Source: Bifidobacterium asteroides
Lineage (GTDB): Bacteria > Actinomycetota > Actinomycetes > Actinomycetales > Bifidobacteriaceae
Length of the DNA stretch: 64,000 nucleotides
Direction of reading: 5' to 3'
NCBI RefSeq assembly: GCF_019469425.1
Contig: NZ_CP048272.1
Coordinates: forward strand, 806,001 to 870,000
The notes under the pieces are model-generated. The model ran no database searches. It saw only the letters and a list, made by a program, of their open reading frames with translations, and was not told the origin of the DNA. Shown here piece by piece: positions 3,026 to 27,610 of this stretch; the first letter of the stretch is position 1; each line of letters starts with the position of its first letter. A program made the translations under genes and the position numbers.

Positions 3026-3925
3026 TCATTGGCCCTGCTGACCCAGATAGTCGGGGATATGTTCGGGATATTCGGGCCAGGCGCCCTGCTGGGTGCAGAC
3101 AAAGGCTGCAGTGTTGACGGCAGCCCGGTGAGCCTGAGTCAGGGAGGCCCCCAACAGGCGGTTGATGGCGAAGGTGCCGGAGAAGGCGTCGCCGGCCCCG
3201 ACCGTGTCAGCCACAGTGATTTCAGGCGTGGGCAGGTGGGAGGACTGGCCGTCCGCCAGATAGATCGTGCTGTAATCGCTGCCGGCGGTCAGCACGATGG
3301 TGTCTAGGTGCCACTGATCCATGAACCAGTGGCAGAGCTCATCATCGGTGGCTCCGGGCACGTGGAACATGTCACGCAGGGTGACCAGTTCTTCGTCGTT
3401 GAGCTTGAAGACCGTGGCCATGTCCAGCAGCTCCTGAATCAGATCCTTGCTGTAGAAGGTGCCGCGCAGGTTGATGTCGAAGAAGCGCATGGCATGGCTC
3501 TTGGTGTGGCGCAGCACCTGCAAACAGGTTTCGCGAGACTGTCTGCTGCGCATGCTCAGCGTGCCGTAGCAGACGGCGTCGGCCTTGCTGGCCAGACCGG
3601 CCAGGTCATCCGTGTATTCCAGATGGTCCCAGGCCACATCGGGCTTGAAGACGTACTGGGGGATGCCCTCAGTCAGCTGGACCTCAACAGTGCTGGTGGG
3701 ATGGTCGTTGTGCTGCAAGACGGCATCGACGCCGGCCTTCTGGACCGCATCCTCGAGCTCCCGGCCCAGGTCGTCGCGTCCCACGGCGCTGATGGCGTAG
3801 CCTTCCGCCCCGTTCTTTGCGGCGTGATAGCTGAAGTTGACCGGTGCGCCACCGGCCCGCTTGCCTGTTGGCAGGACGTCCCAAAGGATTTCGCCGATGC
3901 TGAGGACCACGGGTTTACTGGTCAT
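3026..3925 (-). CDS. PfkB-family carbohydrate kinase (fructokinase-like)
   Basis: Cytoplasmic ATP-dependent sugar kinase of 299 residues, the usual PfkB length. The N-terminal signature is GGAPVNFSYHAAKNGA and the C-terminal ATP/catalytic signature is DTVGAGDAFSG, with the catalytic Asp in GAGD. SIGEILWDVLPTG at the N-terminus resembles bacterial fructokinases. Its start overlaps the end of the upstream ROK regulator by 11 bases, so the two are translationally coupled. Substrate could be fructose or another hexose; since the operon faces a GH20 gene, a role in phosphorylating a glycan-derived sugar is possible but unproven. Confidence 0.85.
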   Translation of the reverse strand: MTSKPVVLSIGEILWDVLPTGKRAGGAPVNFSYHAAKNGAEGYAISAVGRDDLGRELEDAVQKAGVDAVLQHNDHPTSTVEVQLTEGIPQYVFKPDVAWDHLEYTDDLAGLASKADAVCYGTLSMRSRQSRETCLQVLRHTKSHAMRFFDINLRGTFYSKDLIQELLDMATVFKLNDEELVTLRDMFHVPGATDDELCHWFMDQWHLDTIVLTAGSDYSTIYLADGQSSHLPTPEITVADTVGAGDAFSGTFAINRLLGASLTQAHRAAVNTAAFVCTQQGAWPEYPEHIPDYLGQQGQ

Positions 3926-5192
3926 GGTGTTCCTTTCCTGATGACGGGTGATGCGCCCGCCTTGTGCTTGTTGATTTCACAGCTGTACGGCCCATACTGG
4001 CCGGGTGCTCCAAAAACTGGCTGGCAGCTACAGCCGCAGCGCCGGTCAGCGTAGCATCGGCTGGAAGGCGGGAGAGCAGGATCTGCGTGTGCTCTCGCAG
4101 GCCAGGCAGGGAGCGCTGGGACACTATGGATCGGACACGTTCCAACAGGCGTGTACCGGCTCCGGCCACCATGTCTCCAATGACGATCTGGGCGGGGTTG
4201 TAGGCGTTGACGATGGTTACGCAGCCATAGCCCACATAGCCGGCTATCTGATCCACCAGGGTCTGGGCGGCCTGCTGGCCCGTGCGGGCTTTGTCGAACA
4301 GGCCAGCGCAGGCCTTGGCGTGGGTCATGGCCTCGACTCCAGGGAAGTGATCCCGCATATCCGGCTGGCACATGCGGCGGTGGATGGCTACCGCCGAGCA
4401 GTAGCATTCCAGGCAGCCGCGATTGCCGCACTCGCAGGGCAGTCCGTTCAGATCGATGCTGACGTGGCCGATCTCGGTGGCCGCTCCCTGGCTTCCGTCC
4501 ACCAGGGCGCCCCTGTCGATGACTCCAAGCCCAACGCCTTCGCCCACCAGAAAGTAGGCCATGCTGGATGCGCTCACCCGTGGGTCGAACAGACTCTGAG
4601 CCAGTGCGCCGGCGCGGGCGTCCTGCTCGATGAAGGTGGGTACACGGAAGGCTTGGCCGAATTCGTGGATAAAGTCCACGCCACGCCAGCCAGGCATGCT
4701 GGTGACCAAGGCGATGTGGCCGGTCTCGCGCAGATAGGGGCCCGGTATGGCCATGCCTACGGCGACGATGGCGGGGTTGGTCTCCAGTCGTCTTCCCACC
4801 CGGGTTCTGACCTCGGCTACGGCGCCAGGGATATCATCGGGGTCGACGGGAGGCAGATCCTCCGAGTCCAGCAGACGGCCGCTGATGTCGAACAGTCCGA
4901 TGCTGACCAGGCTGCGGGCGAACTTGACTCCGATAACCTGATAGCGGTCGGCGTTCAGGGCCAGGCCGATGGATCGACGGCCGCCCTCTGAGTCCATGCT
5001 GCCGGTCTCGCTGATCAGGCCCAGGTCAATCAGACGGCCTGCCAGCTTGCCCACGGCTGCCGGCGTCAGATTGAGGTCTCGGGCCATCTGGGCTCGCGAA
5101 CTGGTACCGTGCTGGTGCAGATATTGGACTATACGTGACTGGTTGAGCTCGGAGAGGGCCTGTGGCGTGCTGGCGTATGGGCTGCCGCGCAT
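3915..5192 (-). CDS. ROK-family transcriptional regulator
   Basis: NagC/XylR-type repressor of about 425 residues. Residues roughly 15-80 form a winged helix (SRAQMARDLNLTPAAVGKLAG); the rest is a ROK sugar-kinase fold with VAVGMAIPGP and the zinc motif CECGNRGCLEC. The ATG at 5192 is chosen because AAGGAGGAGG lies just upstream; an in-frame ATG at 5237 has no such site. The gene overlaps the PfkB kinase downstream and is divergent from a GH20 gene, so it probably controls both. The ligand is unknown; an amino sugar or hexose (phosphate) would fit. Confidence 0.88.
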   Translation of the reverse strand: MRGSPYASTPQALSELNQSRIVQYLHQHGTSSRAQMARDLNLTPAAVGKLAGRLIDLGLISETGSMDSEGGRRSIGLALNADRYQVIGVKFARSLVSIGLFDISGRLLDSEDLPPVDPDDIPGAVAEVRTRVGRRLETNPAIVAVGMAIPGPYLRETGHIALVTSMPGWRGVDFIHEFGQAFRVPTFIEQDARAGALAQSLFDPRVSASSMAYFLVGEGVGLGVIDRGALVDGSQGAATEIGHVSIDLNGLPCECGNRGCLECYCSAVAIHRRMCQPDMRDHFPGVEAMTHAKACAGLFDKARTGQQAAQTLVDQIAGYVGYGCVTIVNAYNPAQIVIGDMVAGAGTRLLERVRSIVSQRSLPGLREHTQILLSRLPADATLTGAAAVAASQFLEHPASMGRTAVKSTSTRRAHHPSSGKEHHDQ

Positions 5193-5255
5193 GTCAACCT
5201 CCTCCTTGAGCAGTACGGTCACGCGATCTTCGTGCACTTTATGAACGACGTTTAT

Positions 5256-5578: not shown

Positions 5579-7591
5579 ATGAGTCTTGATAATGGCATCG
5601 ACACCGTTGCCGATTCTTCGCGAGAGCGTCCGTTGGCTCTGATTCCCCAGCCGCTCCATGTGCAAAGGGGCCGGGGCCAGTTGCTGTTGCCGGTGGCGGG
5701 CAGAATTATATGCGGTTCAGCAGTTGACCAGGAGCTGGGTTCCGTCCTGAGCGACCAATTGACAGATACCATCAGGCGGGCTGCAGGAATGGTCTGGGAC
5801 CATTCGCGAGGACAGGCTTGGACTGGGGCGATCAGTCTGGATCTGGACCAGAGACTTGGCCCCCAGGAGTATCTTCTGCGCATCGCCGATCCTGGGGAGC
5901 GCCGTCCAATTGTGAATATCCGCGGCGGTGACTGTCAGGGGCTGCGCTGGGGGGTGCAGACCCTCCGGCAGATCATCATGCAATGCGGTCCTGTGCTTCC
6001 GGCCCTGCACATCCAGGACCGACCTGCCTATCCAACGCGCATCTACAGCCTGGATGTGACCCGCGGTCGGGTGCCCACCATGGACTGGCTGCGGCACTGG
6101 GCGGATATATTGGCCTTGTATAAGTTCAATCAGCTGCAGCTCTACATCGAGCACACCATGGCTTTCCCGGGCATGAGCGAGGCCTGGAGGGGCACAAGCC
6201 CCCTGGAGCCCGGGCAGATCACCGATTTCGACGGCTACTGCGCCCGTCTGGGCATCGAGTTGGTGCCTTCGATCTCCACCTTCGGCCACCATTACGCTAA
6301 CCTTCGCACTCGCGGATTCAGGGATCTAGGCGAGTTTCCTGAGCAGGCGGACCGGCCTTACTCTTTCATAGAGCGCCAGGAGCACCACACCATCAATGTC
6401 AACCACCCGCAGGCCCTGGCATTCTCGACCGGACTGATTGACGCCTACGCGCCGCTTATGTGCACACGTAATTTCAATATCGGCGGTGACGAGACCTACG
6501 ATCTGGGCAAGGGGCGTTCGCGGCAGGATGGTTCCAGCAAGGATCCTGCTGATATGTATGCCGATTATCTGATCAGCCTGTGCAATCACCTGCATGCACG
6601 GGGCCGCCATCCCATGTTCTGGGGCGATGTCGCTGTGTCCATGCCCAGAGTCTTGGACAGGCTGCCCAAGGACTGCACATTGCTCAATTGGCTCTACGAC
6701 CCGCAGGTAGGGCCGGAAAAGGTTGCCCTTGTGGCCTCTACAGGGGCCCGGCAGGTAGTCTGCTCGGCCGTTCACGCCTGGAATCTTCTCCTGCCGGGAA
6801 TCGACGATGCATGGAACAACATCAGCCGTCTGAGCCGATACGGAATCCAGTACGGTGCCGTTGGGGCCATGGTTACCGACTGGGGCGATTACGGGCACAT
6901 CAACGATCCGCGCATGAGCCTGCCTGGCATGGCCTACGCCGCCCAGTGCTTCTGGAACCCGAACGACGATGATAGAGTCCGGGTGGACAGGGATCTGGGC
7001 TTGCTGATCTATGGGGATGCGACAGGGGACTATCTGCCGGCACTGATCCAGGCAGGCTCCAGTGAGGTCTTCGGTTGGGAGGACATGGTTCGTTACTGGG
7101 AGCTGGATGACGGCCATGGCGGATTGAACCAGGATGTGGCCCACTTCCTTGCCGGTGCATTGCCCGTCTTGCCCGGACTTGATTCGTCCGCCGATGCCGA
7201 CGAAGCTCGCCGGGGTCTGCTCATGGCTTTGCGCAGTCGTCTCGGGCAGGTGGATCAGCTTGACGATCGGCTGGTCGACGCGGCTGCGCGCATGGGCAGC
7301 GCCGCCGCCGGATGCGGGGCCGACGCGGGCAGGGCCTTGCAGGCCCAGCTGATGGCTGTCCATGGCCAACGCCTCTTCAACGCACTGGGTCGCAGTCTGG
7401 CTGTCCGCCATGATGTTCTGCCTGGAGCTCCGGATGCCAGAGCCGACCGGGACCTGGCGGATGCTTTGGAGATCTGGTTCGAGTCTTACGCCACGCTCTG
7501 GCGTCAGGTAAGCCGTGAATCGGAGCTGGGTCGGATCGCCCATGTAGTCTGGGGCTTTGCCGATATTCTGCGACGGGGGACGAACCACTGA
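5579..7591 (+). CDS. GH20 beta-N-acetylhexosaminidase
   Basis: Cleaves terminal beta-linked GlcNAc/GalNAc from glycans by substrate-assisted catalysis. The 670-residue protein has an N-terminal GH20b-like domain (about 1-145) and a TIM barrel beginning at YPTRIYSLDVTRG. The catalytic pair is D304-E305 in NIGGDETYD, matching the GGDE signature. No signal peptide is seen, so it acts in the cytoplasm on imported oligosaccharides. The start at 5579 has GGAG close upstream. Divergent from the ROK/PfkB operon and close to the mannosidase operons, it fits removal of GlcNAc from N-glycan-derived sugars; exact linkage is not predictable from sequence. Confidence 0.88.
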   Translation: MSLDNGIDTVADSSRERPLALIPQPLHVQRGRGQLLLPVAGRIICGSAVDQELGSVLSDQLTDTIRRAAGMVWDHSRGQAWTGAISLDLDQRLGPQEYLLRIADPGERRPIVNIRGGDCQGLRWGVQTLRQIIMQCGPVLPALHIQDRPAYPTRIYSLDVTRGRVPTMDWLRHWADILALYKFNQLQLYIEHTMAFPGMSEAWRGTSPLEPGQITDFDGYCARLGIELVPSISTFGHHYANLRTRGFRDLGEFPEQADRPYSFIERQEHHTINVNHPQALAFSTGLIDAYAPLMCTRNFNIGGDETYDLGKGRSRQDGSSKDPADMYADYLISLCNHLHARGRHPMFWGDVAVSMPRVLDRLPKDCTLLNWLYDPQVGPEKVALVASTGARQVVCSAVHAWNLLLPGIDDAWNNISRLSRYGIQYGAVGAMVTDWGDYGHINDPRMSLPGMAYAAQCFWNPNDDDRVRVDRDLGLLIYGDATGDYLPALIQAGSSEVFGWEDMVRYWELDDGHGGLNQDVAHFLAGALPVLPGLDSSADADEARRGLLMALRSRLGQVDQLDDRLVDAAARMGSAAAGCGADAGRALQAQLMAVHGQRLFNALGRSLAVRHDVLPGAPDARADRDLADALEIWFESYATLWRQVSRESELGRIAHVVWGFADILRRGTNH

Positions 7592-8044: not shown

Positions 8045-9388
8045 ATGGGTCTGTGGGACGTTGACAAGATCGAATACGTGGGTCGCCAGGGCATCAAGGA
8101 AGGCCTAGGCTTCCGCTACTACGACAAGAACAAGGTGGTGGCTGGCAAGCCCATGAAGGACTGGCTGCGCTTCGCCGTGGCCTGGTGGCACACTTTCAAC
8201 CAGGGCCTGGTGGATCCCTTCGGTGATCCCACCGCGCAGAGGCCCTACTACCGCTACACCGATCCTATGGATCAGGCGCTGGCCAAGGTGGACTACGCCT
8301 TTGAGCTTTTCACCAAGCTAGGGGTCGAATTCTTCTGCTTCCACGACCGTGACCTGGCTCCCGAAGGCGACACTCTGCGAGAAACCGACGCCAACCTGGA
8401 CAAGGTGATCGACCGCATCGAGGCCGCCATGAAGGACACGGGCGTCAAGCTGCTCTGGAACACCTCGTCGCTCTTCACCAATCCCCGTTTCGAGGCCGGT
8501 GCCGGCACATCGCCCTTCGCTGACATCTACGCATACTCAGCGGGTCAGCTCAAGCACAGCCTGGAGATCGGCAAGCGTCTGGGCGCCGAGAACTACGTTT
8601 TCTGGGGTGGCCGTGAAGGGTATGAATCCCTCTGGAACACCGAAATGAAGCGTGAGCAGGACCACATGGCCAAACTCTTCCACATGTGCGTGGACTACGC
8701 CAAGGAGATCGGCTTCGATGCACAGTTCCTGATCGAACCCAAGCCCAAGGAGCCCACACTCCACCAGTATGACTACGATGCAGCCACCACCATCAACTTC
8801 CTGCGCACCTACGACCTTCAGGACAACTTCAAGCTCAACATTGAAGGCAACCACGCCAACCTGGCCATGCATACCTATCAGCATGAGGTCCGCGTGGCCC
8901 GCGAGGCCGGATTCCTGGGATCCCTGGATGCCAACCAGGGCGACAAGCTGATCGGCTGGGACATGGACGAGTTCCCCTCGGACCTCTACGATGCCACCGC
9001 CGTCATGTGGGAGGTGCTGGCCAACGGGAGCATCGGGCCCCACGGAGGCCTGAACTTCGACGCCAAGCCGCGCCGTTCCTCCTTCCTGCCCGAGGACCTC
9101 TTCAGGACCCACATCGTGGGCATGGACACCTATGCCGCCGGTCTGCTGGTCGCGGCAAAGATGCATGAGGACGGTTACATCGAGCAGCTGCAGCAGGAGC
9201 GCTACTCCTCCTTCGATTCCGGCATCGGCGCCACGGTTGAGGACGGCACGGCCACGCTGGCCTCCCTGGAGGAGTACAGCCTTGACAAGCCGCAGGCCGA
9301 ACTGATCGCCGCCGACAAGTCCGACCATCTTGAAGTGGTCAAGGCCACCATCAACAACTACATTGTGGAGGCTCTGGCTCAGGCTTGA
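8045..9388 (+). CDS. xylA: Xylose isomerase
   Basis: Interconverts D-xylose and D-xylulose in the cytoplasm, feeding the phosphoketolase (bifid shunt) pathway after xylulokinase. The 447-residue length matches class II xylose isomerases. FCFHDRD carries the catalytic His (H100), WGGREGYE and [13 protein letters not shown] supply metal-binding acids, and [10 protein letters not shown] and GSLDANQGD are family landmarks. AAAGGAG lies about 12 bases upstream of the ATG. It has its own promoter and terminator and lies about 18 kb from xylB, so xylose genes are scattered here. Confidence 0.97.
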
Positions 9389-9408
9389 GCCTTAGCCAAG
9401 CATCGCTC

Positions 9409-9450
9409 AACCCTGTACGACGGAATTCGCCCGTCGTGCAGGGTTTTCTT
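9409..9450 (+). terminator. Rho-independent terminator after xylA
   Basis: AACCCTGTACGACGG (9409-9423) pairs with CCGTCGTGCAGGGTT (9431-9445) with one wobble, followed by a T-rich tail TTTTCTT. Confidence 0.9.
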
Positions 9451-9656
9451 ATGCGCTTTCGGCTATCCGGGATTGTTGTGCGTCATGGTGAAAAGACACT
9501 CGCATATGTCTGCGAAAAAATAAAGCGGGGATTTTCTGATCTGAGCAATGCCTGAGGCCTGAGGAATAGCCATTCCTGGAGTATTGGCATCTCTGTTCCT
9601 CTAAGCGACTTTTCTGTGTTTCCGAGGATTTTCGTGGCTCTTGTGTGGTAAGGGGC

Positions 9657-9680
9657 TATAATGGAACTAAATCGCTTTAG
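9657..9680 (+). promoter_or_regulatory. -10 box plus LacI-type operator of GH18/ABC operon 1
   Basis: TATAAT (9657-9662) is followed four bases later by CTAAATCGCTTTAG (9667-9680), a LacI-type near-palindrome centred on CG. The same arrangement occurs at 15159-15182. No convincing -35 box is seen, which may mean an activator is needed or the box is weak. The rest of the 9451-9722 gap shows no gene. Confidence 0.75.
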
Positions 9681-9722
9681 TAGATCATCGAAGAACTACT
9701 GCGAACAACATGGAGGTTGTCG

Positions 9723-10649
9723 ATGTCGAATGAGGCAGAGGGCAGGCCGGAAAGTAATCGCGAAAGTGATGAACCGGGACCTATTTTGGCCGGTTATTAC
9801 CGCGCCTGGCGCGATAACTGTGGAAGGCGGAAAGGGGACTCAGTTTCGCTTGGCGATGTGCCCGCAGACCTGGATCTTGTGTCCATCATCACCAATGGAG
9901 AAGTCGATGATGATTTCTGGGTTGCTCTGCCGTTCTACATTGAAAAACTCCACGCGCAGGGCACAAAGGTGGTCCGAACCTTGTTTTTGGACTGCCTTTA
10001 TCGGGACGCCTATGAGGATTGCGGCAAAGTCCACGCTTTCACTCGGCTTAGCGAAGAAAGGAGCGGACCAGAACGCCGTGCCGACGAGATAATTGCCAAC
10101 TACCTAAAGCCCTTTGACTACGACGGCCTGGTGATCGATGTTGATCATGAACCTGAGTCCGATAAAATGGCTGCCGCAGCCGCGGTGTTTCACGCTTTGG
10201 CGAGAAAGTGGGGACCGAGTTCGGCATCCTCGCGCCTCATGATTTTCGATCAGGATATTCTTCTGCCTCAGACCAGTCTGATTGCTCAGGTCTATCAAGA
10301 TTGCTCCTATTATTTCGCTGACACCTATGGCATGGATGTTCGTCGTATTCAGGGTCTTTTCGAGCAGGTCCGCGACTTTGTACCTGCTTCAAAATTCGTC
10401 ACTGGTTTTTCATTCTATGAAGAAGGAGGCCCTCGATGGGGTGATGTCACGTATCCGATTGAAGGAAGCAGGGTCAAAGACCTCCTATCCTGGCATCCGA
10501 CTGGTTCGAACCGCACAGGAGGACTTTTCGCCTACGCAATAGATCGCGATGGGGTTGCTCAAGGTGACGATCGGTTGAGGCGAACCGATTATGAAATCAT
10601 GCACTATGTAAAAGAAAAATTGGAGAACAAAGGAGTCTCTCATGAATAA
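9723..10649 (+). CDS. Cytoplasmic GH18 (EndoH-like) endo-beta-N-acetylglucosaminidase homologue
   Basis: 308-residue protein without a signal peptide, paralogous along its length to the secreted protein at 13871. Shared blocks are the N-terminal strand AGYYRAWRD, QGTKVVRTL, YDGLVIDVDHE, YYFADTYG, GFSFYEEGG and FAYAIDRDGVAQGDD. The layout (DG..D.D.E-type strand, then a [FY]A..YG strand, then a [YF].[LI]DRDG end) resembles GH18 ENGases such as EndoH, which cleave the chitobiose core of N-glycans. At the acid position of the DGxxxDxE pattern it has Asp (DGLVIDVD) with a Glu two residues later, so activity is uncertain. ATG 9723 has GGAGG six bases upstream. First gene of the LacI-operator operon; its end overlaps the binding-protein gene by 8 bases. 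Confidence 0.6.
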   Translation: MSNEAEGRPESNRESDEPGPILAGYYRAWRDNCGRRKGDSVSLGDVPADLDLVSIITNGEVDDDFWVALPFYIEKLHAQGTKVVRTLFLDCLYRDAYEDCGKVHAFTRLSEERSGPERRADEIIANYLKPFDYDGLVIDVDHEPESDKMAAAAAVFHALARKWGPSSASSRLMIFDQDILLPQTSLIAQVYQDCSYYFADTYGMDVRRIQGLFEQVRDFVPASKFVTGFSFYEEGGPRWGDVTYPIEGSRVKDLLSWHPTGSNRTGGLFAYAIDRDGVAQGDDRLRRTDYEIMHYVKEKLENKGVSHE

Positions 10650-12000
10650 GCTGGGAAAAATATCAGTCATGTTGCTGGCCGCGGCTACCAGCGTCGGGAT
10701 TTTATCGTCGTGTGGCTCTTCCGAATCGGATAAGAAAACAGTCAAGTTTGCCTACCAGGCCACCGGAGACACCAGTGCTATAAGCAAGTGGATGAAAGAC
10801 GTCAAAGCCCAGTTTGAGTCTGAGAACAAAGGCGCCACTTTGAAGCTGGAGCCTATCAAATCGAACGGGGATGACTATGGCAGCAAGCTGGCCTTGATGA
10901 GCAAATCCGAAAAAACCGCTCCAGACCTCATGATCCTTGACACGGAAATGATCCGTCCCTATGTAGCGGCTGGTTACCTTAAGCCCATTGATGACCAACT
11001 GAAAGGGTGGAAGGATTGGTCGCAGTATTTTGACAGTTCGAAGAACGCCGGCAAAGCCGATGATGGAAAAATCTATGCAGTTCCTCTGGGCACTGACACC
11101 AGGGGCATCTGGTATAACAAAGACATTCTCAAGAAGGCCGGCCTGAGCGACAACTGGCAGCCTAAGTCCTGGGATGATGTGATCGATGCAGCGACAAAGA
11201 TCAAGAAAACGCAGCCTGATGTAATACCGATGAACCTCTATGCCGGCCGTCCTCTGGGAGAGGTCTCCGTCATGCAAGGCTTCGATATGCTTCTTTACGG
11301 CACCAAGGGTGGCACACTGTACAACACCAAGACTCAAAAGTGGGTCACTGGTTCCAAGCAATTCAAAGACTCCCTCCAGTTCATCAAGGATATTTACAGC
11401 AAGGGTCTGGCACCCTCGCCCCAGCAGGCTCTGGATCCTCAGCTTGGTGACAAGGTCGGGCAACAGTGGATGCCTCAGTCGAAACTTGGCATGTCAATCG
11501 AGGGCAACTGGCTGGCTTCATCGTGGATGCCAGGCGGCGACAGCGAATGGACTGACTGGCAGAAGCATATCGGCTGGTGTGGTTTCCCAACTCAGAACGG
11601 GCAGAAGCCTGGCCTGATTTCAATGTCTGGCGGCTGGGGCCTGGCGCTGTCCAGCCATACGCAGAATCCTGATCTTGCTTTCAAAGCGCTCAAAGTTTTC
11701 CAAAACGAGAAGCACGCTGCAGCGTACGACACAATCTCCGGATCAATCGCAGTGCGCAAGGATGTAGAGCAAGACAAGAAATACCTGGGATCCAATCCCA
11801 CTATCAAGTTCTTCACGGATTTGGCCAAGTACAGTCAGTACAGGCCTGCAAATTCCCAGTACAAAGAGGTTTCCGACCAGGTCGCCATAGCCACGGAAAG
11901 CGTATTGACCGGCCAGAAGTCAGTCAAGGATGCAGCAGCTGAATACGATTCAGCGATAGCCAAAACTGTAGGTGCCGATCATACAGAAGCCGCGAAGTAA
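10642..12000 (+). CDS. ABC sugar importer, substrate-binding lipoprotein (operon 1)
   Basis: Family 1 extracellular solute-binding protein of 452 residues, anchored to the outer face of the membrane. The signal peptide ends in the lipobox GILSSC with the lipidated Cys at residue 24. Downstream it follows the MalE/UgpB type, with a ligand region near APDLMILDTEMIRPY and typical GGWGLALSSHT and NPDLAFKALKVF stretches. Its start overlaps the cytoplasmic GH18-like gene, and two permeases follow. Given the glycosidases around it, the ligand is probably an oligosaccharide from N-glycans or mannans; this is inferred from context. Confidence 0.88.
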   Translation: MNKLGKISVMLLAAATSVGILSSCGSSESDKKTVKFAYQATGDTSAISKWMKDVKAQFESENKGATLKLEPIKSNGDDYGSKLALMSKSEKTAPDLMILDTEMIRPYVAAGYLKPIDDQLKGWKDWSQYFDSSKNAGKADDGKIYAVPLGTDTRGIWYNKDILKKAGLSDNWQPKSWDDVIDAATKIKKTQPDVIPMNLYAGRPLGEVSVMQGFDMLLYGTKGGTLYNTKTQKWVTGSKQFKDSLQFIKDIYSKGLAPSPQQALDPQLGDKVGQQWMPQSKLGMSIEGNWLASSWMPGGDSEWTDWQKHIGWCGFPTQNGQKPGLISMSGGWGLALSSHTQNPDLAFKALKVFQNEKHAAAYDTISGSIAVRKDVEQDKKYLGSNPTIKFFTDLAKYSQYRPANSQYKEVSDQVAIATESVLTGQKSVKDAAAEYDSAIAKTVGADHTEAAK

Positions 12001-12044
12001 CCGAATTCCATTCGCTGGTTTTCTTTCGTGACTGAGAGAAGAAA

Positions 12045-12935
12045 ATGAATAGCAGCACAAGAAAGAAATTGATAAACGCTGAGCACTACACCCCAATTCT
12101 ACCAGCAGCGGCGATGATGGTGCTTTTCCTGCTTGGCCCAATCATATGGTCCTTGTATGCCTCGCTGACCGACTATTCAATGGTTGGTTCAACGGCTGTC
12201 AACCCACACTTTGTCGGTCTGAAGAACTATGTGGCGCTCTTCACGGATCCTGTTTTTCCCAAGTCCCTCTGGCTGACCATTCTTTTGATCCTGGCCTCGG
12301 CGCTAATTGGGCAGAACATACTGGGCATGGTATTGGCTCTGCTCAGTCAAAAAGCGCCCAGAAGACTGACAAAGGTCGTGGACTCAATAGTGGTTCTGGC
12401 CTGGGTCATTCCGGACATTGTCGGATGCTACTGCGCCTACGCGCTCTTTGCTGGCGGAGGCACTCTTGACGCTCTGGGCAAGGCGGTGGGTGCCGATTGG
12501 TCGGCTCTCCTCTACTACCATCCAATGACCATCGTCATCATTGTGAACGTCTGGCGCGGCACTGCCTTTTCAATGCTCATCTATCAAGCCGCTCTGAACG
12601 ACATCTCCAAGGATGTAATCGAAGCTGCCGAGATAGACGGCGCGAACGCCTGGCAGTCTTTCTTCAGAATCAAGCTGCCTATTATGAGGCACTCGATTCT
12701 TACCAATTTGATGTTGATCACCCTGCAGACACTCTCCGTCTTCAGCATCATCATTGTCTTGACTGGCGGGGGGCCTGGCACGAATTCGAGCACCCTTCCT
12801 GTTCTTGCCTACTTGGAGGCTTTCAACTTCTCGAAGTTGGGATATGGAACAGCCATCTCGGTGATATTGGTCGTCGTGGGTGCCCTCTTCTCGGTGCTCT
12901 ATATCAAGCTGCTAAGGACAAATGATGAAGACTGA
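12045..12935 (+). CDS. ABC sugar importer permease, MalF-type (operon 1)
   Basis: Inner-membrane permease of 296 residues with about six hydrophobic helices and the cytoplasmic EAA loop (EAAEIDGANAWQSF) that docks the ATPase. It lies 44 bases after the binding protein and its end overlaps the second permease by 14 bases. As usual in bifidobacteria no ATPase gene is present, so a shared MsmK-type ATPase elsewhere in the genome is presumably used. Confidence 0.9.
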   Translation: MNSSTRKKLINAEHYTPILPAAAMMVLFLLGPIIWSLYASLTDYSMVGSTAVNPHFVGLKNYVALFTDPVFPKSLWLTILLILASALIGQNILGMVLALLSQKAPRRLTKVVDSIVVLAWVIPDIVGCYCAYALFAGGGTLDALGKAVGADWSALLYYHPMTIVIIVNVWRGTAFSMLIYQAALNDISKDVIEAAEIDGANAWQSFFRIKLPIMRHSILTNLMLITLQTLSVFSIIIVLTGGGPGTNSSTLPVLAYLEAFNFSKLGYGTAISVILVVVGALFSVLYIKLLRTNDED

Positions 12936-13785
12936 AGCTACTCTTGATCCACGGATGAAAGCGCCGCACAGGTACGACTGGATGAAGCTGGTCGCTGCGA
13001 TACTGACAGCCTTGATAGGTTTTCTTTTCGCTGCGCCCATGCTCTGGCTGCTGGTCGCCTCCTTCAACACGCATGCAACCCTGTCTTCGTTCAACTTGGG
13101 TTTTTCCCTCCAGAACTTTGCGAAGGTATTCAACATGCAGACCTTCGGGTTGCCTATCGTCAACTCGCTGATCATCAGCATTGGCACATCGGTCCTAGTG
13201 GTGACTTTTTCGGTCCTGGCAGCCTATCCTCTCTCCAGATTCCGTTCAAAGACCACCAACCGGACCGTTAACGCCATCCTCTTCGCCAGTTGTTTGCCAA
13301 TTACAGCCATGATGGTCCCTGTTTACGGGATATTCGTCCAGCTTCACTTGATCGATTCACTGACCGGGACTGTTCTTTTCATGACTGCCTGCGGATTGCC
13401 GCAGGGCATCTTCATGATGAAGAATTTCATGGATTCAGTGCCGGTTACCTTGGAGGAAGCCGCTTGGGTGGATGGAGCCACGAGGATGCAGGCCCTGTTC
13501 CATGTGGTCGTGCCTCTGATGGTTCCATCGCTTCTGGTCATCTTTATATCGGAATTCGCTGGGAACTGGGGGAACTTCTTCGTTCCCTTCATGCTTCTGA
13601 TGTCTCCGGATAAAGAACCGGCAGCCGTCAGCATTTACACCTTCTTCGGGCAGCATGGCACAGTTGCCTACGGCCAGCTGGCAGCTTTCTCGCTGCTGTA
13701 TTCAATACCCATTCTGATTATTTACGAAGTTACGAATAGATACATTGGCAACCAAACCCTGCTTGCCGGTGCAGTCAAGGAATAG
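12922..13785 (+). CDS. ABC sugar importer permease, MalG-type (operon 1)
   Basis: Second permease of the importer, 287 residues, six predicted helices and an EAA loop (LEEAAWVDGATRMQALF). The ATG pair at 12922 lies inside the end of the preceding permease, giving translational coupling. The C-terminus shows the MalG/LacG-type end with helices near PILIIYEV. It is followed by an 85-base gap and the secreted GH18-like gene. Confidence 0.9.
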   Translation: MMKTEATLDPRMKAPHRYDWMKLVAAILTALIGFLFAAPMLWLLVASFNTHATLSSFNLGFSLQNFAKVFNMQTFGLPIVNSLIISIGTSVLVVTFSVLAAYPLSRFRSKTTNRTVNAILFASCLPITAMMVPVYGIFVQLHLIDSLTGTVLFMTACGLPQGIFMMKNFMDSVPVTLEEAAWVDGATRMQALFHVVVPLMVPSLLVIFISEFAGNWGNFFVPFMLLMSPDKEPAAVSIYTFFGQHGTVAYGQLAAFSLLYSIPILIIYEVTNRYIGNQTLLAGAVKE

Positions 13786-13870
13786 AAGAAGCGTCGATGC
13801 CGCGGAGAGGAGGGAATCGACATTTTATTTGCTTCAGTTAAAGAAAAACAAGTTTGAAAAGAGATCAACC

Positions 13871-14848
13871 ATGAAAATCCGGAGAATGATAACGGCATCA
13901 ATGGCCATTCTGGCCTTGGCAGGAACCTCCGCAATAGGAGCCACTGCTGCCTGGGCCGAATCTGATGCTCAAGGGAAGACCCATGAGATGACTGTTGCCT
14001 ATTTCAGGGCCTGGAGAGATACGCATTCGGATCCGACTGTCAACTTCAACTCGATGTCGGATCTGCCCAAACAGGTGGACATAGCTATCGCCTTTCCCAA
14101 CCCGGAGACCACTCAGGCCTTCTGGGACACTCTTCCTGGGCAGATTGAGTCACTGCACAAGCAGGGCACAAAAGTGATCAGGAGTCTGGATATCAGCCTC
14201 TTCTATAAGGATGATTTCAACGACCCTCATGACCATCAGTCTCTTTCGCCCATGGAAAGCAATGCAGAGGGGTACGCCAAACGCGCCAGCGAGCTCAAGA
14301 GGTCCTATCTTTGCTTCCCTGGACTTGACGGCTTTGTTGTCAACGCAGAGGCGAGCATGACCCCCACCGACGTTCAACGGGCCAAGGGGGTTCTCAGGGC
14401 CATGTCGAGCTACTACGGGCCCAAGTCACCTGAGCCGAGTTCCATCTTTGCTTATAACACCAACAAGCCTGGGACCAACAGCCTCTATAGGGGAGTGTCC
14501 GACGTGGTCTCTTACGTATTCGCCGATGCCTACGGGCGTTCGGTCGGAGCCCTCCAGCGGGACTGGGAGACCTACAAGGGCACGATCAAGAGCAGGCAGT
14601 ACATTCCGGGTTTCTCCTTCTATGAAGAGCGGGGCGGATGGTGGTATGACACCGAAGAGCCGATGTCAACCAGCAGGGCCATGCAGTACGCTCTTTGGGA
14701 GCCTGATGACGGGGCCGATGGCACACAAAAAGGCGGCGTTTTTGAGTATGCCGTCGATAGAGATGGAGTGCGTCGAGGCGACGACAAGCTTCAACCTACG
14801 ACCTTCGAATGGACCAAGGCCCTTTCAGCGGCCATGAACAAGCAGTGA
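13871..14848 (+). CDS. Secreted GH18 (EndoH-like) endo-beta-N-acetylglucosaminidase homologue
   Basis: 325-residue exported protein: residues 1-35 are a Sec signal peptide (KIRR, hydrophobic core, AWA cleavage site) with no lipobox, LPXTG or C-terminal anchor. The mature part is a paralogue of the cytoplasmic protein at 9723 and shows VAYFRAWRD, QGTKVIRSL, LDGFVVNAEASM, YVFADAYG, GFSFYEERGG and FEYAVDRDGVRRGDD. In the DGxxxDxE pattern it keeps the Glu (DGFVVNAE) but has Asn where ENGases have the oxazoline-stabilising Asp. Likely role is release of N-glycans from host glycoproteins outside the cell for the co-transcribed importer. The family call is inferred from strand order, not a search. 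A clear terminator follows. Confidence 0.6.
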   Translation: MKIRRMITASMAILALAGTSAIGATAAWAESDAQGKTHEMTVAYFRAWRDTHSDPTVNFNSMSDLPKQVDIAIAFPNPETTQAFWDTLPGQIESLHKQGTKVIRSLDISLFYKDDFNDPHDHQSLSPMESNAEGYAKRASELKRSYLCFPGLDGFVVNAEASMTPTDVQRAKGVLRAMSSYYGPKSPEPSSIFAYNTNKPGTNSLYRGVSDVVSYVFADAYGRSVGALQRDWETYKGTIKSRQYIPGFSFYEERGGWWYDTEEPMSTSRAMQYALWEPDDGADGTQKGGVFEYAVDRDGVRRGDDKLQPTTFEWTKALSAAMNKQ

Positions 14849-14865
14849 CGGTCATCTGAAGATCG

Positions 14866-14905
14866 AGGGTCCTTCTGCCTTCCGGCACCTGGACCCTCTT
14901 TTATT
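14866..14905 (+). terminator. Rho-independent terminator of operon 1
   Basis: GAGGGTCC (14866-14873) pairs perfectly with GGACCCTC (14892-14899), followed by TTTTATT. The remaining gap to 15158 shows no gene. Confidence 0.88.
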
Positions 14906-15158
14906 GCTGCCAATTCGCGAACAGTGAACAAGAGCCCATTTCCAGAAGCCGCGAAATAAGGCTGAAAGTGTCCTCGGAGGTTGCAAGTCTTCATGGGCCA
15001 GTGGGTTTGCTCAAAGCGTGTGCTGGTCCCAAAACGTTGTGATACCGCCCTTCGTCAGGAATTCATCCTAATGGAATGCGGGCTTGTGCCGACTTTTCGA
15101 ACTGGTGAACAGAAACACGCTATTTATTGGGGGCCAGATCTTTGGGCACTGGATAGGG

Positions 15159-15182
15159 TACAATTGAACTAAACCGCTTTAG
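15159..15182 (+). promoter_or_regulatory. -10 box plus LacI-type operator of GH38/ABC operon 2
   Basis: TACAAT (15159-15164) is followed four bases later by CTAAACCGCTTTAG (15169-15182). This matches the site at 9667 in 13 of 14 bases and in its distance from the -10 box. Repressor binding here would block the transcription start. Confidence 0.75.
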
Positions 15183-15219
15183 TAGAGATGCGAAGCGGAC
15201 CTGCGAGGAGGTTGTGAGG

Positions 15220-18200
15220 ATGCAGCTGAAGATAGAACGCGTGCTTGACAAGTGCGATCGTGTCATGCGTCAACGCGTGCTACCGAAGATTGAGCGGCCT
15301 ATGGGCCAGGTTCAAGTTCGCTCTTTCGTCATTTCCGGGGAACCGATAACGTCATCGGAGTTCTTTGAGAAAGTGCAAAGCGAGAGTGTAGACTTTCGGA
15401 CTCTCTCCCTGGGGGATACCTGGGGCACGACCTGGGGGACCACATGGATGGAGGTGACCGGTCATGTCGATGCCGACTGGGCGGCCAGGGCCCCGATCGA
15501 GCTGGTGGTCGATCTGGGCTGGCATCCGGATGCGCCCGGCGGCCACTTTGAAGCCCTGGCCTATAGGAGTGATGGGTCGATTATCAAGGCCGTCAACCCC
15601 CGCAACCGCTGGATTCCGCTCGACGGCACTGATCTGGACGGGAATCCGACACGTGACGAGGCTTCGGTCATCAACCCGGATGGAACCTTTACCATTTATC
15701 TGGAAGCGGCCTGCAATCCGCTTCTGCTTGGCACCCCAGCATTCGTGGAGACGCAGCTGGGCGAGGGAACCACAGGTCGTGCCGATGAGCCCAATGTCCT
15801 CAAGCAGATGGATGTCTGTCATTTTGACCATGAGGCATGGAACTACTACATGGATCTTGAGGTCGCAGCCCAGCTGATTCGCGAGTGTGACCAGAGCCAG
15901 CCGCGGTACTGGCGTCTGGGCAAGGCCCTGCAGCGTTCGCTGAATATCTACGATGAACGTGACCTGGCCACACTCGGGCCGGCTCGACAGGCCCTGGCCG
16001 GTGTGCTGGCAGTGCCGGCGACCTCCAGCGCCTTGGATCATGCGGCAGTGGGTCATTCTCATATTGACTCCGCCTGGCTCTGGCCCAAGCGGGAGACCAG
16101 GCGCAAGGTTGCGCGGACTGTTTCGAACATGCTTGCACTAATGGAGCGCGATCCTCAATTCATCTATGCCATGAGCTCGCCCCAGCAGTATGCATGGCTG
16201 GAGGAGGATCATCCCGATCTCTTCGCTCGCGTCAAGCAACGCATCCAAGAAGGCAGGTTCATCCCTGTTGGAGGGATGTGGGTGGAGTCTGACGGCATGC
16301 TGCCTTCAGGGGAGTCGTTGACCCGCCAGTTCACCTATGGCAAGCGGTACTACCGCGAGCATCTGGGGGTAGACACGACTGTGGTCTGGGAGCCGGATAG
16401 CTTCGGCTATACGGGCCAGTTCCCGCAGATTGCCCGCCGTGCAGGAATGACTTCCTTCCTTTCGCAGAAGATTTCCTGGAATGATACGACCAAATTCCCA
16501 CACCACACCTTTGACTGGCAGGGCATTGATGGCACGGCCATCTTCACGCATTTCCCTCCCATGGATACCTATGCCTCCAGCATGACGGCCCGGGAGCTCA
16601 ATCACTCCGAAGAGAATTACCAGGACAAGGACATCTCGACCAGGGCCCTGGTCCTGTTCGGCTATGGCGATGGCGGCGGCGGCACTACCAGGGAGATGCT
16701 GGGGCGTTATGACCGTCTGCATGACGTTGAGGGGTCGGCCAAGGTGCGGTATCAGGCTCCTGCAGACTTCTTCCGCCAGTCAGAGGAGGAGATCCGCAAG
16801 GAGGCTGGTTCCGAGATGCCTGTCTGGAAGGGCGAGCTCTACCTGGAGCTGCACCGCAAGACCCTGACCTCCCAGCAGGATATGAAGCGGGGCTGCCGGC
16901 AGGAGGAGGCCATGCTGCGCACGGTCGAATACCTGTGCGCCTACGCCGGCTTGGTCGATGACTCATACACCTACCCCCGTCAGGAGCTGGACGAAATCTG
17001 GCGCACGCTTCTGCTCAACCAGTTCCATGACATTCTTCCGGGTTCCGCCATCTCTTGGGTACACAGGCTGGCCAGGGAAGACTACCGCAGGGACATCGCC
17101 CGTCTGGAACAGATCGGTGATGAGGCAGCCTGCGTCATAGCCTCCGCGCAGCCGCAGGCTCCTATGGTGTCCGATGCCAAGCTGGTACCCATGGATGGCA
17201 ATGGTCAGGCGGCTTGGGAGGCAGTCGGGCCAGTCCATGCTCAGGAGGGTTCCGAGAGTATCAGACCTGTCCAGGTCAATCAAGAGGGCAATGAATTCGT
17301 TATCGACAATGGTCTTATCCGTGCCGTTGTCGCTTCAGACGGCGAAGTCCATTCCATTCTTGACAGGACCTCCGGCAGGGACCTGGTTCCGCAAGGCTCC
17401 TCGGTGGGCGGATACGAGCTCTTCAAGGACGAGCCCTACATGTGGGATGCCTGGGATCTGGAGCGCGATGCCCTGCTGACTGCTTCTCCAGTCGATGACC
17501 CAGTCACCATGGAGGCCTTGGATTCCGGTGTTCGGGTATCGCGTCGGCATGGCGAGACCACAATCGTGACCACGATCGGGCTGACCCCGGGCGGCAGGCA
17601 GCTGAACTTCACTGCTGACGTGGACTGGCGCCAGGATGAGCAGCTGCTCAAGGTGGACATTCCCGTCGCAGTTCAGGCCAGGTATGCGCAATTCGAGTGC
17701 CAGTATGGCTTCATCGACAGGCCCATTCAGAAGAACAACGCTGCTGAAGAGGCCCAGTTCGAGAGCTGCACGCACCGATTCGTCAGGATAAGCGATGACG
17801 ACCTTGCCGTCGGTGTGGTCAACGCCTCGACATACGGCGGCGACACCACACCGATCCACTATGACGGGAAGGCCGGCAAGGAGGCGGGTACCCTGGTCAG
17901 ACTGACCCTCCTGTCCGCTCCGGTCTTTCCCGATCCGCATACCGACAGGGGCAAGCACAGCTTTGCCTGGTCCATCGTCCCTGGGGACACTCAGGCTGAC
18001 ATCCTGCAAGCAGCCTATGCCCTCAACGCTCCGGTCTTCCATCATGGACTGCCTGGCGTTGAACCACTGGCTGGCGTTGAGGATATTCAGGGCACTACCG
18101 TCATCGACTGGGTCAAGACGGCTGATGACGACAGCGGCGATGTGATCGTCAGGGTCTACAATCCGGATTCTTCCCCCTCCAAGGCCAGGCTGCACACGGG

Positions 18201-18369
18201 GTCTGTCCTGCAGGGCGCGACCGTGAAGGAAACCAACTCCTTGGAGGACGGACCCGTGCCCGAGGGCGTGCGGCCAGGCCTGTGCTCCGAACAGGGTGCG
18301 CAAGCTGATGGGGCCTTGCTGGATCTGGTTCCCTTCCAGTTCACCACCTTGAGACTCTCCAGGCGCTGA
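15220..18369 (+). CDS. GH38 alpha-mannosidase
   Basis: Retaining alpha-mannosidase of about 1,049 residues, the normal size for bacterial GH38 enzymes. Zinc ligands are visible in GHSHIDSAWLW (H281, D283) and the nucleophile is D393 in WEPDSFGY. A middle helical domain (KTLTSQQDMKRGCRQEE, LLLNQFHDILPGSAI) and C-terminal beta-sandwich domains follow. No signal peptide, so it trims imported manno-oligosaccharides in the cytoplasm. ATG 15220 is chosen over GTG 15214 because GAGGAGG sits 8 bases before it. First gene of the second LacI-operator operon; with the GH18-like and GH5 genes it fits stepwise N-glycan breakdown. Confidence 0.93.
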   Translation: MQLKIERVLDKCDRVMRQRVLPKIERPMGQVQVRSFVISGEPITSSEFFEKVQSESVDFRTLSLGDTWGTTWGTTWMEVTGHVDADWAARAPIELVVDLGWHPDAPGGHFEALAYRSDGSIIKAVNPRNRWIPLDGTDLDGNPTRDEASVINPDGTFTIYLEAACNPLLLGTPAFVETQLGEGTTGRADEPNVLKQMDVCHFDHEAWNYYMDLEVAAQLIRECDQSQPRYWRLGKALQRSLNIYDERDLATLGPARQALAGVLAVPATSSALDHAAVGHSHIDSAWLWPKRETRRKVARTVSNMLALMERDPQFIYAMSSPQQYAWLEEDHPDLFARVKQRIQEGRFIPVGGMWVESDGMLPSGESLTRQFTYGKRYYREHLGVDTTVVWEPDSFGYTGQFPQIARRAGMTSFLSQKISWNDTTKFPHHTFDWQGIDGTAIFTHFPPMDTYASSMTARELNHSEENYQDKDISTRALVLFGYGDGGGGTTREMLGRYDRLHDVEGSAKVRYQAPADFFRQSEEEIRKEAGSEMPVWKGELYLELHRKTLTSQQDMKRGCRQEEAMLRTVEYLCAYAGLVDDSYTYPRQELDEIWRTLLLNQFHDILPGSAISWVHRLAREDYRRDIARLEQIGDEAACVIASAQPQAPMVSDAKLVPMDGNGQAAWEAVGPVHAQEGSESIRPVQVNQEGNEFVIDNGLIRAVVASDGEVHSILDRTSGRDLVPQGSSVGGYELFKDEPYMWDAWDLERDALLTASPVDDPVTMEALDSGVRVSRRHGETTIVTTIGLTPGGRQLNFTADVDWRQDEQLLKVDIPVAVQARYAQFECQYGFIDRPIQKNNAAEEAQFESCTHRFVRISDDDLAVGVVNASTYGGDTTPIHYDGKAGKEAGTLVRLTLLSAPVFPDPHTDRGKHSFAWSIVPGDTQADILQAAYALNAPVFHHGLPGVEPLAGVEDIQGTTVIDWVKTADDDSGDVIVRVYNPDSSPSKARLHTGSVLQGATVKETNSLEDGPVPEGVRPGLCSEQGAQADGALLDLVPFQFTTLRLSRR

Positions 18370-18469: not shown

Positions 18470-19771
18470 ATGAGAGCACTGAAGAAGGTAGCAGTATTGA
18501 TCTGCGCGACTGCCATGGCGGGTTCTTTGGCGGCGTGCGGAGGAAGCAACAGCAGTTCAGGCGGGTCGAAAGACGGCAAGCCGTCAGGCGAGATTTCCTT
18601 CCAGACATGGAACCTGAAAAACGACAAGTACACTCCGTACTTCAAAAACCTGATTTCTGCCTACGAGAAGTCGCATCCCGGCACCACCATCAAATGGATC
18701 GATCAGCCCTCGGACAATTATGAGCAGAAGCTGTCCGCTGATGCAGCAGCCAACTCCCTGCCCGACATCATCGATGCGGGTCCCTCACTGATGTATGGCC
18801 TGGCCAAGGCCGGGGCCCTGATGAACATCAGCAAGGAAGCTCCCAAGGCTGAAAACAACTATTACAAGAATGCCTGGAATGCAGTGACCTTCAAGGGCAA
18901 GGACATCGAGGAGGGAGCCTACGGCTTCCCCTGGTATGTCAACGATGGACCGACCTATTACAACACTGATCTCATGCAGAAGTGCGGACTGGACCCCAGC
19001 AAGCTGCCCGTGACCTGGGACGACTACTTCTCCCAGGCGGACACCATGGTCAATAGCGGCTGCGGGGCCTACATGTCCACCATGCTGGGCGGCTCCGTCG
19101 ATGACTATGCATCGGCCGGCATCCCCATCATGAACAAGGACCACACCAAGTACATCTTCAATTCCCCCGAGGCCGTCAAGCATCTGCAGCGCTTCGTCGA
19201 CCTGTACAACAAGAAGGGAATCCCGCCGGAGGCTCTGAGCGCACAGTGGTCTCAGCAGGGCGAGTTCTTCCAGAAGGGTTCCATCGTGGCCATGGGCGGC
19301 AGCGCCTACTCGGCGGCGGACTTCAAGCAGAACTCTCCTGACCTGTACAAGCATCTGGCTGTGGGCACCAAGATCAGCGATCAGGGCAAGTCCGCCAGCC
19401 TGGCCTATGAGATGCTGGCCGTCAATGCCCAGACCAAGAACAAAACGCTCGCTCTGGACTTCGTACAGTATGTGACCAATGCCAAGAACCAGCTGGCATT
19501 CGCCAAGAAGTCCAACACCTTCCCCTCGAGCAAGGGCGGTCTTGACGATCCTTACTATGCCAACATCGATACCAGCGATGTTCAAGGCAAGGCCCTGAAG
19601 ATCACTCTGAACTCCGTGAAGAACGGGTATTCAAGCCGTCCTGCCGAGTTCACCGATGCCAATGGCCACGACTACCTGCAACAGCAGGCCGCTCTGGCCC
19701 TGCAGGGCAAGCAGACCGCGAAAGAGTCCTTGGACAAGGCCGTTAAGTACGCCAACGAGAAGCTGCAGTAA
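18470..19771 (+). CDS. ABC sugar importer, substrate-binding lipoprotein (operon 2)
   Basis: Family 1 solute-binding protein, 433 residues, with lipobox GSLAAC and lipidated Cys at residue 23, then a Gly/Ser-rich linker. The mature part has the usual MalE-type landmarks (ADAAANSLPDIIDAG, VAMGGSAYSAAD). GAAAGGAAG precedes the ATG. It is 100 bases after the GH38 gene and only two bases before the first permease. Substrate is inferred from the operon to be a mannose-containing oligosaccharide. Confidence 0.88.
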   Translation: MRALKKVAVLICATAMAGSLAACGGSNSSSGGSKDGKPSGEISFQTWNLKNDKYTPYFKNLISAYEKSHPGTTIKWIDQPSDNYEQKLSADAAANSLPDIIDAGPSLMYGLAKAGALMNISKEAPKAENNYYKNAWNAVTFKGKDIEEGAYGFPWYVNDGPTYYNTDLMQKCGLDPSKLPVTWDDYFSQADTMVNSGCGAYMSTMLGGSVDDYASAGIPIMNKDHTKYIFNSPEAVKHLQRFVDLYNKKGIPPEALSAQWSQQGEFFQKGSIVAMGGSAYSAADFKQNSPDLYKHLAVGTKISDQGKSASLAYEMLAVNAQTKNKTLALDFVQYVTNAKNQLAFAKKSNTFPSSKGGLDDPYYANIDTSDVQGKALKITLNSVKNGYSSRPAEFTDANGHDYLQQQAALALQGKQTAKESLDKAVKYANEKLQ

Positions 19772-19773
19772 CT

Positions 19774-20745
19774 ATGAGCCGCGCTGACTCTTCCGCCATC
19801 CGGCCGAAGGCTTCTGCCCTCGGCCGTCGCGGCGGACCCCAGGCCGGGGTCAAAGACGGTAAGGGGACTCACTGGACCACGGCCTTGGCCCCTTACTTGT
19901 TTGTCTTCCCGGCCTTCGCCATCGTCTTCATCTTCGTCATCGTCGCTGCGCTGAATACCTGCCGACTGGCCTTCACTGATTCCACCCTGCTGCGACCGGG
20001 CAAGTTCGTAGGCATCCAGAACTTTGTAAAGATCGTGCATGACGACTATTTCTGGATCGCGCTGCTCAACTCCACCCTTTATGTGGTGTGCGTGGTCCCC
20101 TTTATGGTGATCCTTCCCCTGATACTGGCCAACCTGGTCAAGGGGAACTCCAGGATCATGGGGTTCTTCAGGACCTCCTTCTACACTCCCGTGGTCATGT
20201 CGGCTGTGGTGGTGGGAATGATCTGGACCAACCTGCTGGATCCCAAGGGGCTGGTCAACTCGGTTCTGGAGTCCTTGCACATCATTCGCAGCCCGATCCC
20301 ATTCCTCAGTGATCGCTGGCTGATACTGTTCACATCCATGTTCGTTACCATCTGGCTGGGCCTGGGATACTACATGGTCATCTACCTGACCGCCCTGGCC
20401 AACATCGACGCCTCTCTCTACGAGGCCGCCTCGCTGGATGGGGCAGGACCGGTGAGGCAATTTCTCTATGTCACCATCCCAGGAGTGAGATCCACCATCG
20501 TGCTGATCATGATGCTGTCCACTATCGCGGCCTTCCGCGTGTTCAACGAGATTTACGTGCTCACCAACGGCACGGCTGGTCCCGGCGGCGAGGACATCAC
20601 CATGTCCATGCTCATCCAGAAAGAGGGCACGGGCATTCAGGCCAGAACGGGCTATGCCAGCGCTCTGTCACTGATTGTGCTGGTTGTGGTCGGAGCCATG
20701 CTGATTTTGCAGCAGATTATCCAGAAGCGGGGGGAGGACTCATGA
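19774..20745 (+). CDS. ABC sugar importer permease, MalF/UgpA-type (operon 2)
   Basis: Membrane permease of 323 residues with a basic cytoplasmic N-terminus, about six helices and the EAA loop YEAASLDGAGPVRQF. Its stop overlaps the start of the second permease in an ATGA junction. No ATPase gene lies in the operon. Confidence 0.9.
   Translation: MSRADSSAIRPKASALGRRGGPQAGVKDGKGTHWTTALAPYLFVFPAFAIVFIFVIVAALNTCRLAFTDSTLLRPGKFVGIQNFVKIVHDDYFWIALLNSTLYVVCVVPFMVILPLILANLVKGNSRIMGFFRTSFYTPVVMSAVVVGMIWTNLLDPKGLVNSVLESLHIIRSPIPFLSDRWLILFTSMFVTIWLGLGYYMVIYLTALANIDASLYEAASLDGAGPVRQFLYVTIPGVRSTIVLIMMLSTIAAFRVFNEIYVLTNGTAGPGGEDITMSMLIQKEGTGIQARTGYASALSLIVLVVVGAMLILQQIIQKRGEDS

Positions 20746-23100: not shown

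Positions 23101-27610
<4,510 letters not shown>

Follow-up and report, generated by a model that had tools for sequence, protein, structure and literature searches.

The 64,000-nt stretch of Bifidobacterium asteroides contig NZ_CP048272.1 analyzed here ("the window"; positions 806,001 to 870,000, assembly GCF_019469425.1) comes from a genome that is a single contig of 2.23 Mb. On its forward strand is a five-gene operon in which one ATP-binding cassette (ABC) importer lies between two paralogous proteins, here called P1 and P2. P1 (9723–10649) is followed by the solute-binding lipoprotein of the importer (10642–12000), its permeases 1 (12045–12935) and 2 (12922–13785), and P2 (13871–14848). 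By their matches, both paralogs are proteins of glycoside hydrolase family 18 (GH18) of the EndoS type, a group of endo-β-N-acetylglucosaminidases (ENGases); P1 is cytoplasmic and P2 secreted, and the active sites of both are altered, in different ways.

P1 and P2 are 308 and 325 amino acids long, respectively, and 34% identical over 285 aligned positions (BLASTP, E 5e-50), with the motifs YYRAWRD/YFRAWRD, QGTKV, GFSFYEE, and YA[IV]DRDGVxxGDD in common. This agrees with a first-pass annotation of the same DNA, which had described the first and last genes of the operon as paralogs, and whose coordinates and motifs proved correct when checked against reading frames and translations. It had also assigned a signal peptide to the last gene product only and placed the first in the cytoplasm, and inspection of start codons and N-termini upholds both points. 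P2 has a Sec-type signal at its N-terminus, as judged by eye. Upstream of P1, the sole in-frame start is a TTG at 9717, just two codons before the assigned one and preceded by GGAGG at 9712–9716, so that P1 can have no signal peptide. The reading frames show that the P1 ortholog in a second genus (genome G063) also begins without one; on both counts, an overlooked signal peptide upstream of P1 was ruled out.

The Pfam model PF23916 (EndoS TIM barrel) matches both proteins over the whole catalytic domain and above its curated cut-off of 27, with 172.9 bits for P1 (E 1e-50) and 217.7 for P2 (E 3e-64). Among solved structures, 13 distinct PDB chains match each protein at E 1e-16 or better. The top ones are 6KPL and 6KPN, labelled Chitinase, which we take to be Endo-CoM; EndoS2 (6E58), EndoS (4NUY), EndoE, and CP40 types follow, some of these names, such as EndoE for 7PUJ, being likewise our assumption. 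Because of this homology to solved enzymes, a TIM-barrel fold is expected for P1 and P2. Scores against NCBIfam NF049901 (presumably EndoBI-1) are far under its cut-off of 900 (91.6 for P1, 136.2 for P2), and the classical GH18 model, PF00704, has no match anywhere in the window genome. P1 and P2 thus belong to the same catalytic-domain family as Endo-CoM, EndoS, EndoS2, EndoE, and EndoBI-1, with which they align over the whole domain and share aromatic motifs, but differ from these in being single-domain and in the replacement of the catalytic motif and of strand-5 and strand-6 residues. The earlier proposal of GH18-like proteins with TIM-barrel relatives therefore stands, but not the likeness to EndoH, an assignment dismissed here since the Pfam and PDB matches all point to the EndoS type; they also leave no place for the suggested new branch of clan GH-K (a clan assignment that is general background). 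In the profile comparison that had been proposed, PF23916 was the GH18 match, and a BT1044-like match appeared in the G063 ortholog of P2 only, under the cut-off.

Active-site positions were compared in an alignment with 18 canonical rows chosen from those fetched; frames that were partial, frameshifted, or spuriously extended were kept out of it, as were a few other rows. EndoS numbering was transferred via the EndoS chain in the PDB alignment. The equivalents of EndoS D231, D233, E235, D279, and Q303 are invariant in all 18. At these five positions P1 has V137, D139, D141, D176, and D200, and P2 has V156, N158, E160, N196, and D219. The GH18 motif DxxDxDxE is consequently lost in both, which had gone unmentioned in the first-pass annotation: P1 reads DGLVIDVD (DGxVxDxD, with Asp for the acid Glu) and P2 reads DGFVVNAE (DGxVxNxE, with Asn for Asp). 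The strand-6 Gln (EndoS Q303) is Asp in both proteins, and the Tyr equivalent to EndoS Y305 is retained. P1 is further changed at F175, for the usual Tyr, and at Q177-D178, for an invariant Thr-Asn; D178 aligns with EndoS T281, which contacts O6 of the N-acetylglucosamine (GlcNAc) at +1. All 25 of the other readable relatives in the fetched loci (E ≤1e-3) are canonical, with DGxDxDxE; the table behind this count omits ten long duplicate loci, and three rows and the N-terminal piece of a split P1 were unreadable in it. The 6KPN chain has Asn and Gln at its two catalytic positions. Changes at the catalytic Asp of GH18 enzymes are otherwise known as laboratory-made ones, often for glycosynthases.

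The same substitutions recur in G063, where P1 is 44% and P2 60% identical to the window proteins. Only the first of the positions varies (V/I in P1, V/A in P2), the others being identical save Q177, which is H there. Random decay was ruled out, as the substitutions are identical or conservative between genera, and so was a shifted acid in the HE that follows the P1 motif, which is RN in G063.

The available text on EndoS gives D233 and E235 as its catalytic residues and reports that alanine changes in loop 6 (Q303, Y305) abolished hydrolysis (PMC5951799). For EndoE, contacts to O1 are reported from the acid/base Glu and from Q243 (PMC8894350); the latter is probably the strand-6 Gln. The altered strand of P2 has a counterpart in family GH85, which is found in eight of 189 genomes of the bacterial family, with DG[WY]F[IV]NQE in all eight proteins. 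Like these bifidobacterial ENGases and Endo-A, P2 has a DG-x-hydrophobic-x-Asn-x-Glu strand, in which, relative to GH18, the second Asp is replaced by a hydrophobic residue and the third by Asn, and the Glu is kept; P1 lacks the Asn-x-Glu pair. In Endo-A, N171 and E173 are described as essential, and N171A as having no detectable hydrolysis, in the portion of the paper at hand (PMC2646837). The likeness is local. Profile comparison with GH85 (hhalign) gave a probability of 2.6% for P2 (four rows), 13.8% for P1, and 42% for the canonical EndoS-type set, the P1 and P2 alignments being shallow, while P1 against the canonical set gave 100%. With its whole-sequence match insignificant, P2 was dismissed as a member of GH85, and the family-wide search found no GH85 in the window genome.

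P2 is probably a hydrolytic ENGase, because it keeps the acid/base Glu, because Asn is workable at this position in GH85, and because there is no GH85 or PF00704 match in the genome. Searches for GH85 and PF00704 GH18 gave no other secreted ENGase candidate (PNGases were not searched for). PF01112 was found once, but the protein's NCBIfam match, β-aspartyl-peptidase-like and far under the cut-off, says little about glycosylasparaginase.

Across the 189 genomes of the bacterial family, 13 match PF23916. Both P1 and P2 are present in six of these, namely five in the genus of the window and G063 in another. The named genomes with close P1 relatives (88–90% identity) are those of B. asteroides, B. 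mellis, B. choladohabitans, and Bifidobacterium sp. 7101, which we take to be honeybee gut species. The five-gene order is repeated at loci L001–L004 and in G063 (P1-binding protein-permease-permease-P2, with counterparts of the GH38, GH5_18, and LacI genes described below ahead of it on the same strand), and this recurrence places the arrangement far beyond chance. The G063 ortholog of P2 (L061, 4677–5921) has an additional C-terminal List_Bact repeat (PF09479) that the window P2 does not. In a class sample of 296 genomes, 62 have a PF23916 match, 29 of them over the cut-off; besides the window only one genome (G288) exceeds 36 bits, and it is canonical. Among 396 genomes sampled from the order, 18 have a P2 match, and apart from those of the carriers every readable one is canonical; a phylum sample of 396 gave none at E 1e-15 besides the window's own. 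A tree built without the eight active-site columns joins the P1 and P2 types at 97/95, each of them a long branch. When the P2 rows are removed, P1 falls with L087–L089 (92/86); when the P1 rows are removed, P2 lies beside L087–L089 without resolution. One duplication is the likely, though unproven, origin of the pair.

Mean ratios of nonsynonymous to synonymous substitution (dN/dS, four genomes) are 0.19 for P1, 0.056 for P2, 0.05 for the GH38 gene, and 0.02–0.03 for the importer genes. P2 is under strong purifying selection; constraint on P1 is also evident, though weaker than on the genes around it (0.02–0.06). P1 is also split into two frames in Bifidobacterium sp. 7101 (L004, 9995–10926; presumably G003). 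The L004 locus is one base shorter, and a sequencing error is possible there.

P1 may be non-catalytic. The main rival to an enzymatic role is a glycan-holding one, in which P1 would be a cytoplasmic protein that binds or senses an imported N-glycan, as an aid to induction or for hand-over to GH38, leaving P2 as the sole ENGase. The weaker constraint, the split gene, and Asp at the E235 equivalent in all five P1-type rows would suit this. However, in P1 of G063, at 44% overall identity, strands 4, 5, and 6 retain their acidic residues, and Y202 (EndoS Y305), the family Y232-E233, Y271, and D274 are conserved as well. A LacI regulator is, besides, already at the locus. This reading seems rather unlikely. 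That P1 is an active hydrolase comes slightly short of an even chance. Because its strand-6 Asp takes the place of the EndoS Gln that touches O1, a relocated proton donor is possible for it. Much less probable is that neither protein hydrolyzes, P2 capturing glycans outside the cell and P1 being its internal counterpart, with release left to other gut bacteria or the host. Both proteins do lack the canonical DxxDxDxE and have the strand-6 Gln changed, but the acid/base Glu of P2, its Asn, which is functional in GH85, and the purifying selection on P2 tell against this, as does the retention of GH38 and GH5_18 in a genome where, within the searches described, P2 is the one secreted candidate.

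The surroundings of the operon point to N-glycan use, as first proposed, on the evidence of a shared operator and of GH38 and GH5_18 matches to solved enzymes from the N-glycan pathway of bifidobacteria. A LacI-type operator, the 16-bp palindrome ACTAAATCGCTTTAGT (9666–9681), lies 5′ of P1, directly 3′ of a TATAAT -10-like box, and a second copy, ACTAAACCGCTTTAGT (15168–15183), lies 5′ of a GH38 α-mannosidase gene (15214–18369), whose product resembles the solved Alpha-mannosidase chains 7UFR–7UFU (E 0 against 7UFR). Further downstream, also on the forward strand, are the binding protein (18470–19771) and permease (19774–20745) of a second importer, the former with counterparts in L063 and L064, loci with canonical EndoBI-type genes; a GH5_18 β-mannosidase (21589–22881; the search began at 21604), like BlMan5B (E 5e-168, a match to a solved enzyme) and BlGH5_18; and a LacI-family regulator (23089–24261), kept at the G063 locus, which is the likely reader of both operators. 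Upstream is a forward-strand GH20 β-N-acetylhexosaminidase-like gene (5579–7591), with no obvious signal peptide.

The operator query was the palindrome noticed at 9666–9681, which is thus found by construction. With up to one mismatch, the only other site in the whole genome is the one before GH38, and the reversed control gave none. In a control limited to the window, with as many as three mismatches allowed, 7 of 100 shuffles reached a pair of matches; both real sites have no mismatches. In G063 there are perfect operators before P1 and GH38, and a third copy, with two mismatches, before P1. Exact copies also precede GH38 in L118, L119, L120, and L064, the last of which also has a canonical EndoBI-type gene; another lies before an EndoBI-type gene in L070, and one past the end of such a gene in L069. 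Since in the window genome the operator occurs only before P1 and GH38, the P1–P2 operon belongs with the N-glycan regulon, a tie firmer than neighborhood alone.

Together, GH38, GH5_18, LacI, and importer genes give the window the content of a bifidobacterial N-glycan locus. Compared with that locus as set out in the part of a 2023 review available (PMC10154615), the window has the same GH38, GH5_18, LacI regulator, second importer, and operator, but no EndoBI-type or GH85 gene was found in it, and the P1-importer-P2 operon stands in; that operon is missing from some related genomes. Of 27 genomes of the genus, 13 have GH5_18 (two with an in-frame stop) and five have P1–P2; GH5_18 is present in all five carriers and in 8 of the 22 non-carriers (Fisher 0.016, uncorrected for relatedness). 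A different GlcNAc-containing target, such as chito-oligosaccharides or peptidoglycan fragments, could be imagined, given that there are chitinases within GH18 and that the importer binding protein matches chitin-oligosaccharide binders among many sugar binders. With an operator in common only with GH38, the GH5_18 association, and best matches to EndoS-type endoglycosidases, this is very improbable.

The best explanation, with a probability of roughly 0.42, is that the five-gene operon is an N-glycan acquisition module with P2 acting outside the cell and P1 inside, both as catalysts. We infer the catalytic steps, the substrates, and the transport specificity as follows. Secreted P2 would cut the GlcNAc-β1,4-GlcNAc core of N-glycans by substrate-assisted catalysis, Asn158 orienting the acetamide and Glu160 serving as acid/base, the pair that GH85 uses where GH18 has Asp/Glu. 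Both the released glycans and free ones ending in chitobiose would enter through the importer, and P1 would act in the cytoplasm on those still bearing two GlcNAc residues, its Asp139 orienting the acetamide and either the strand-6 Asp200 (the position of the O1-contacting Gln in EndoS) or Asp141 serving as acid/base. GH38, GH5_18, and GH20 would then complete the breakdown of the core. A cytoplasmic ENGase is sensible only if glycans enter the cell with both of their GlcNAc residues.

Several observations weigh against this scheme. Each protein changes one of the two EndoS catalytic residues together with the loop-6 Gln (D233 and Q303 in P2, E235 and Q303 in P1), and in P1 the loss of the catalytic Glu is accompanied by changes at four other positions invariant in the 18 canonical rows. 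As a whole, P2 resembles GH85 less than its canonical relatives do. P1 has a dN/dS 3.4 to 9 times as high as its neighboring genes, and its gene is the split one. L063 and L066, each with an EndoS-type gene and GH5_18, hold no exact copy of the operator. Chitobiose might also be split by the cytoplasmic GH20, a role suggested for the Cutibacterium enzyme (PMC6160142), and this makes P1 less necessary.

If P2 does hydrolyze, it would be a natural link between the GH18 and GH85 mechanisms and a test of whether a GH18 barrel still hydrolyzes with Asn in the place of Asp. If P1 does, it would be a GH18 enzyme working without the canonical Glu and would give bacteria a cytoplasmic route for the free glycans ending in chitobiose that are released by plants. 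The two cases would bear on the use of pollen and insect glycoproteins by bee gut bacteria. A bolder idea, on balance unlikely, is that after duplication the catalytic site of this GH18 lineage was remodeled along two complementary lines. P2 would have converged on the GH85 Asn-Glu pair and may carry out natural transglycosylation; P1 would have its acid/base on the strand-6 Asp, or else bind a metal with its Asp cluster (139, 141, 176, 178, 200); and the changed +1 site (P1 Asp178) may admit the α1,3-fucosylated core of plant N-glycans. According to the 2023 review, activity on plant N-glycans had not been described for any enzyme of GH18 or GH85, and none acted on α1,3-fucosylated plant cores (PMC10154615).

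A cytoplasmic GH18 protein in an N-glycan locus is an idea already proposed, and not new here. In N-glycan locus 1 of Cutibacterium acnes, a signal-less GH18 protein was suggested to be a cytoplasmic ENGase; as in the window, it lies beside GH38, GH5_18, GH20, and an importer, and there too the GH18 and GH20 genes vary between strains. It is nearest EndoT in the paper's table, and the text available names neither a secreted paralog nor a catalytic change (PMC6160142). EndoS-type GH18 proteins that lack a signal but keep their motifs intact occur in group f8, another family of the order, at L093, L095, L103, and possibly L102; those of the first three are away from any N-glycan cluster. Of 14 window proteins searched in L112–L115, around f8 GH18 genes, GH18 was the sole one with a counterpart. 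Two of the genomes (G737, with L103, and G754, with L102) also hold a paralog with a signal-like N-terminus (L087, L089). What seems new is an EndoS-type pair with catalytic residues replaced in two different ways, one predicted to be secreted and the other cytoplasmic; no report of this catalytic variant or operon was found in titles and abstract openings among the openly licensed papers listed.

The site between xylA and GH38 is itself variable. In G004 and G020, the region corresponding to ~9390 to 15155 is missing, and xylA runs directly into the GH38 operator and then GH38. In G007 (L119, 1310–11236) a different cassette lies between xylA and GH38, with a PfkB kinase, a DeoR regulator, GH4, a second GH38, and an importer. 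The site thus seems to exchange mannose-related modules. GH20, upstream of xylA, is present in four of the five same-genus carriers (the window and L002–L004, but not L001), and is absent where the cassette is missing (G004 and G020; the two cassette-less loci covering its place are L118 and L120). A GH2 protein replaces it in L118 (7363–9825), and a similar-looking frame stands in its place in L001 (5131–7614). Upstream of GH20 in the window, on the opposite strand, is a ROK-family regulator (3915–5237), NagC-like but under the cut-off, which may control GlcNAc use. The xylA gene (8045–9388) adjoins the N-glycan cluster, and might serve the core xylose of plant N-glycans, the bacterium being presumably the symbiont of a pollen feeder.

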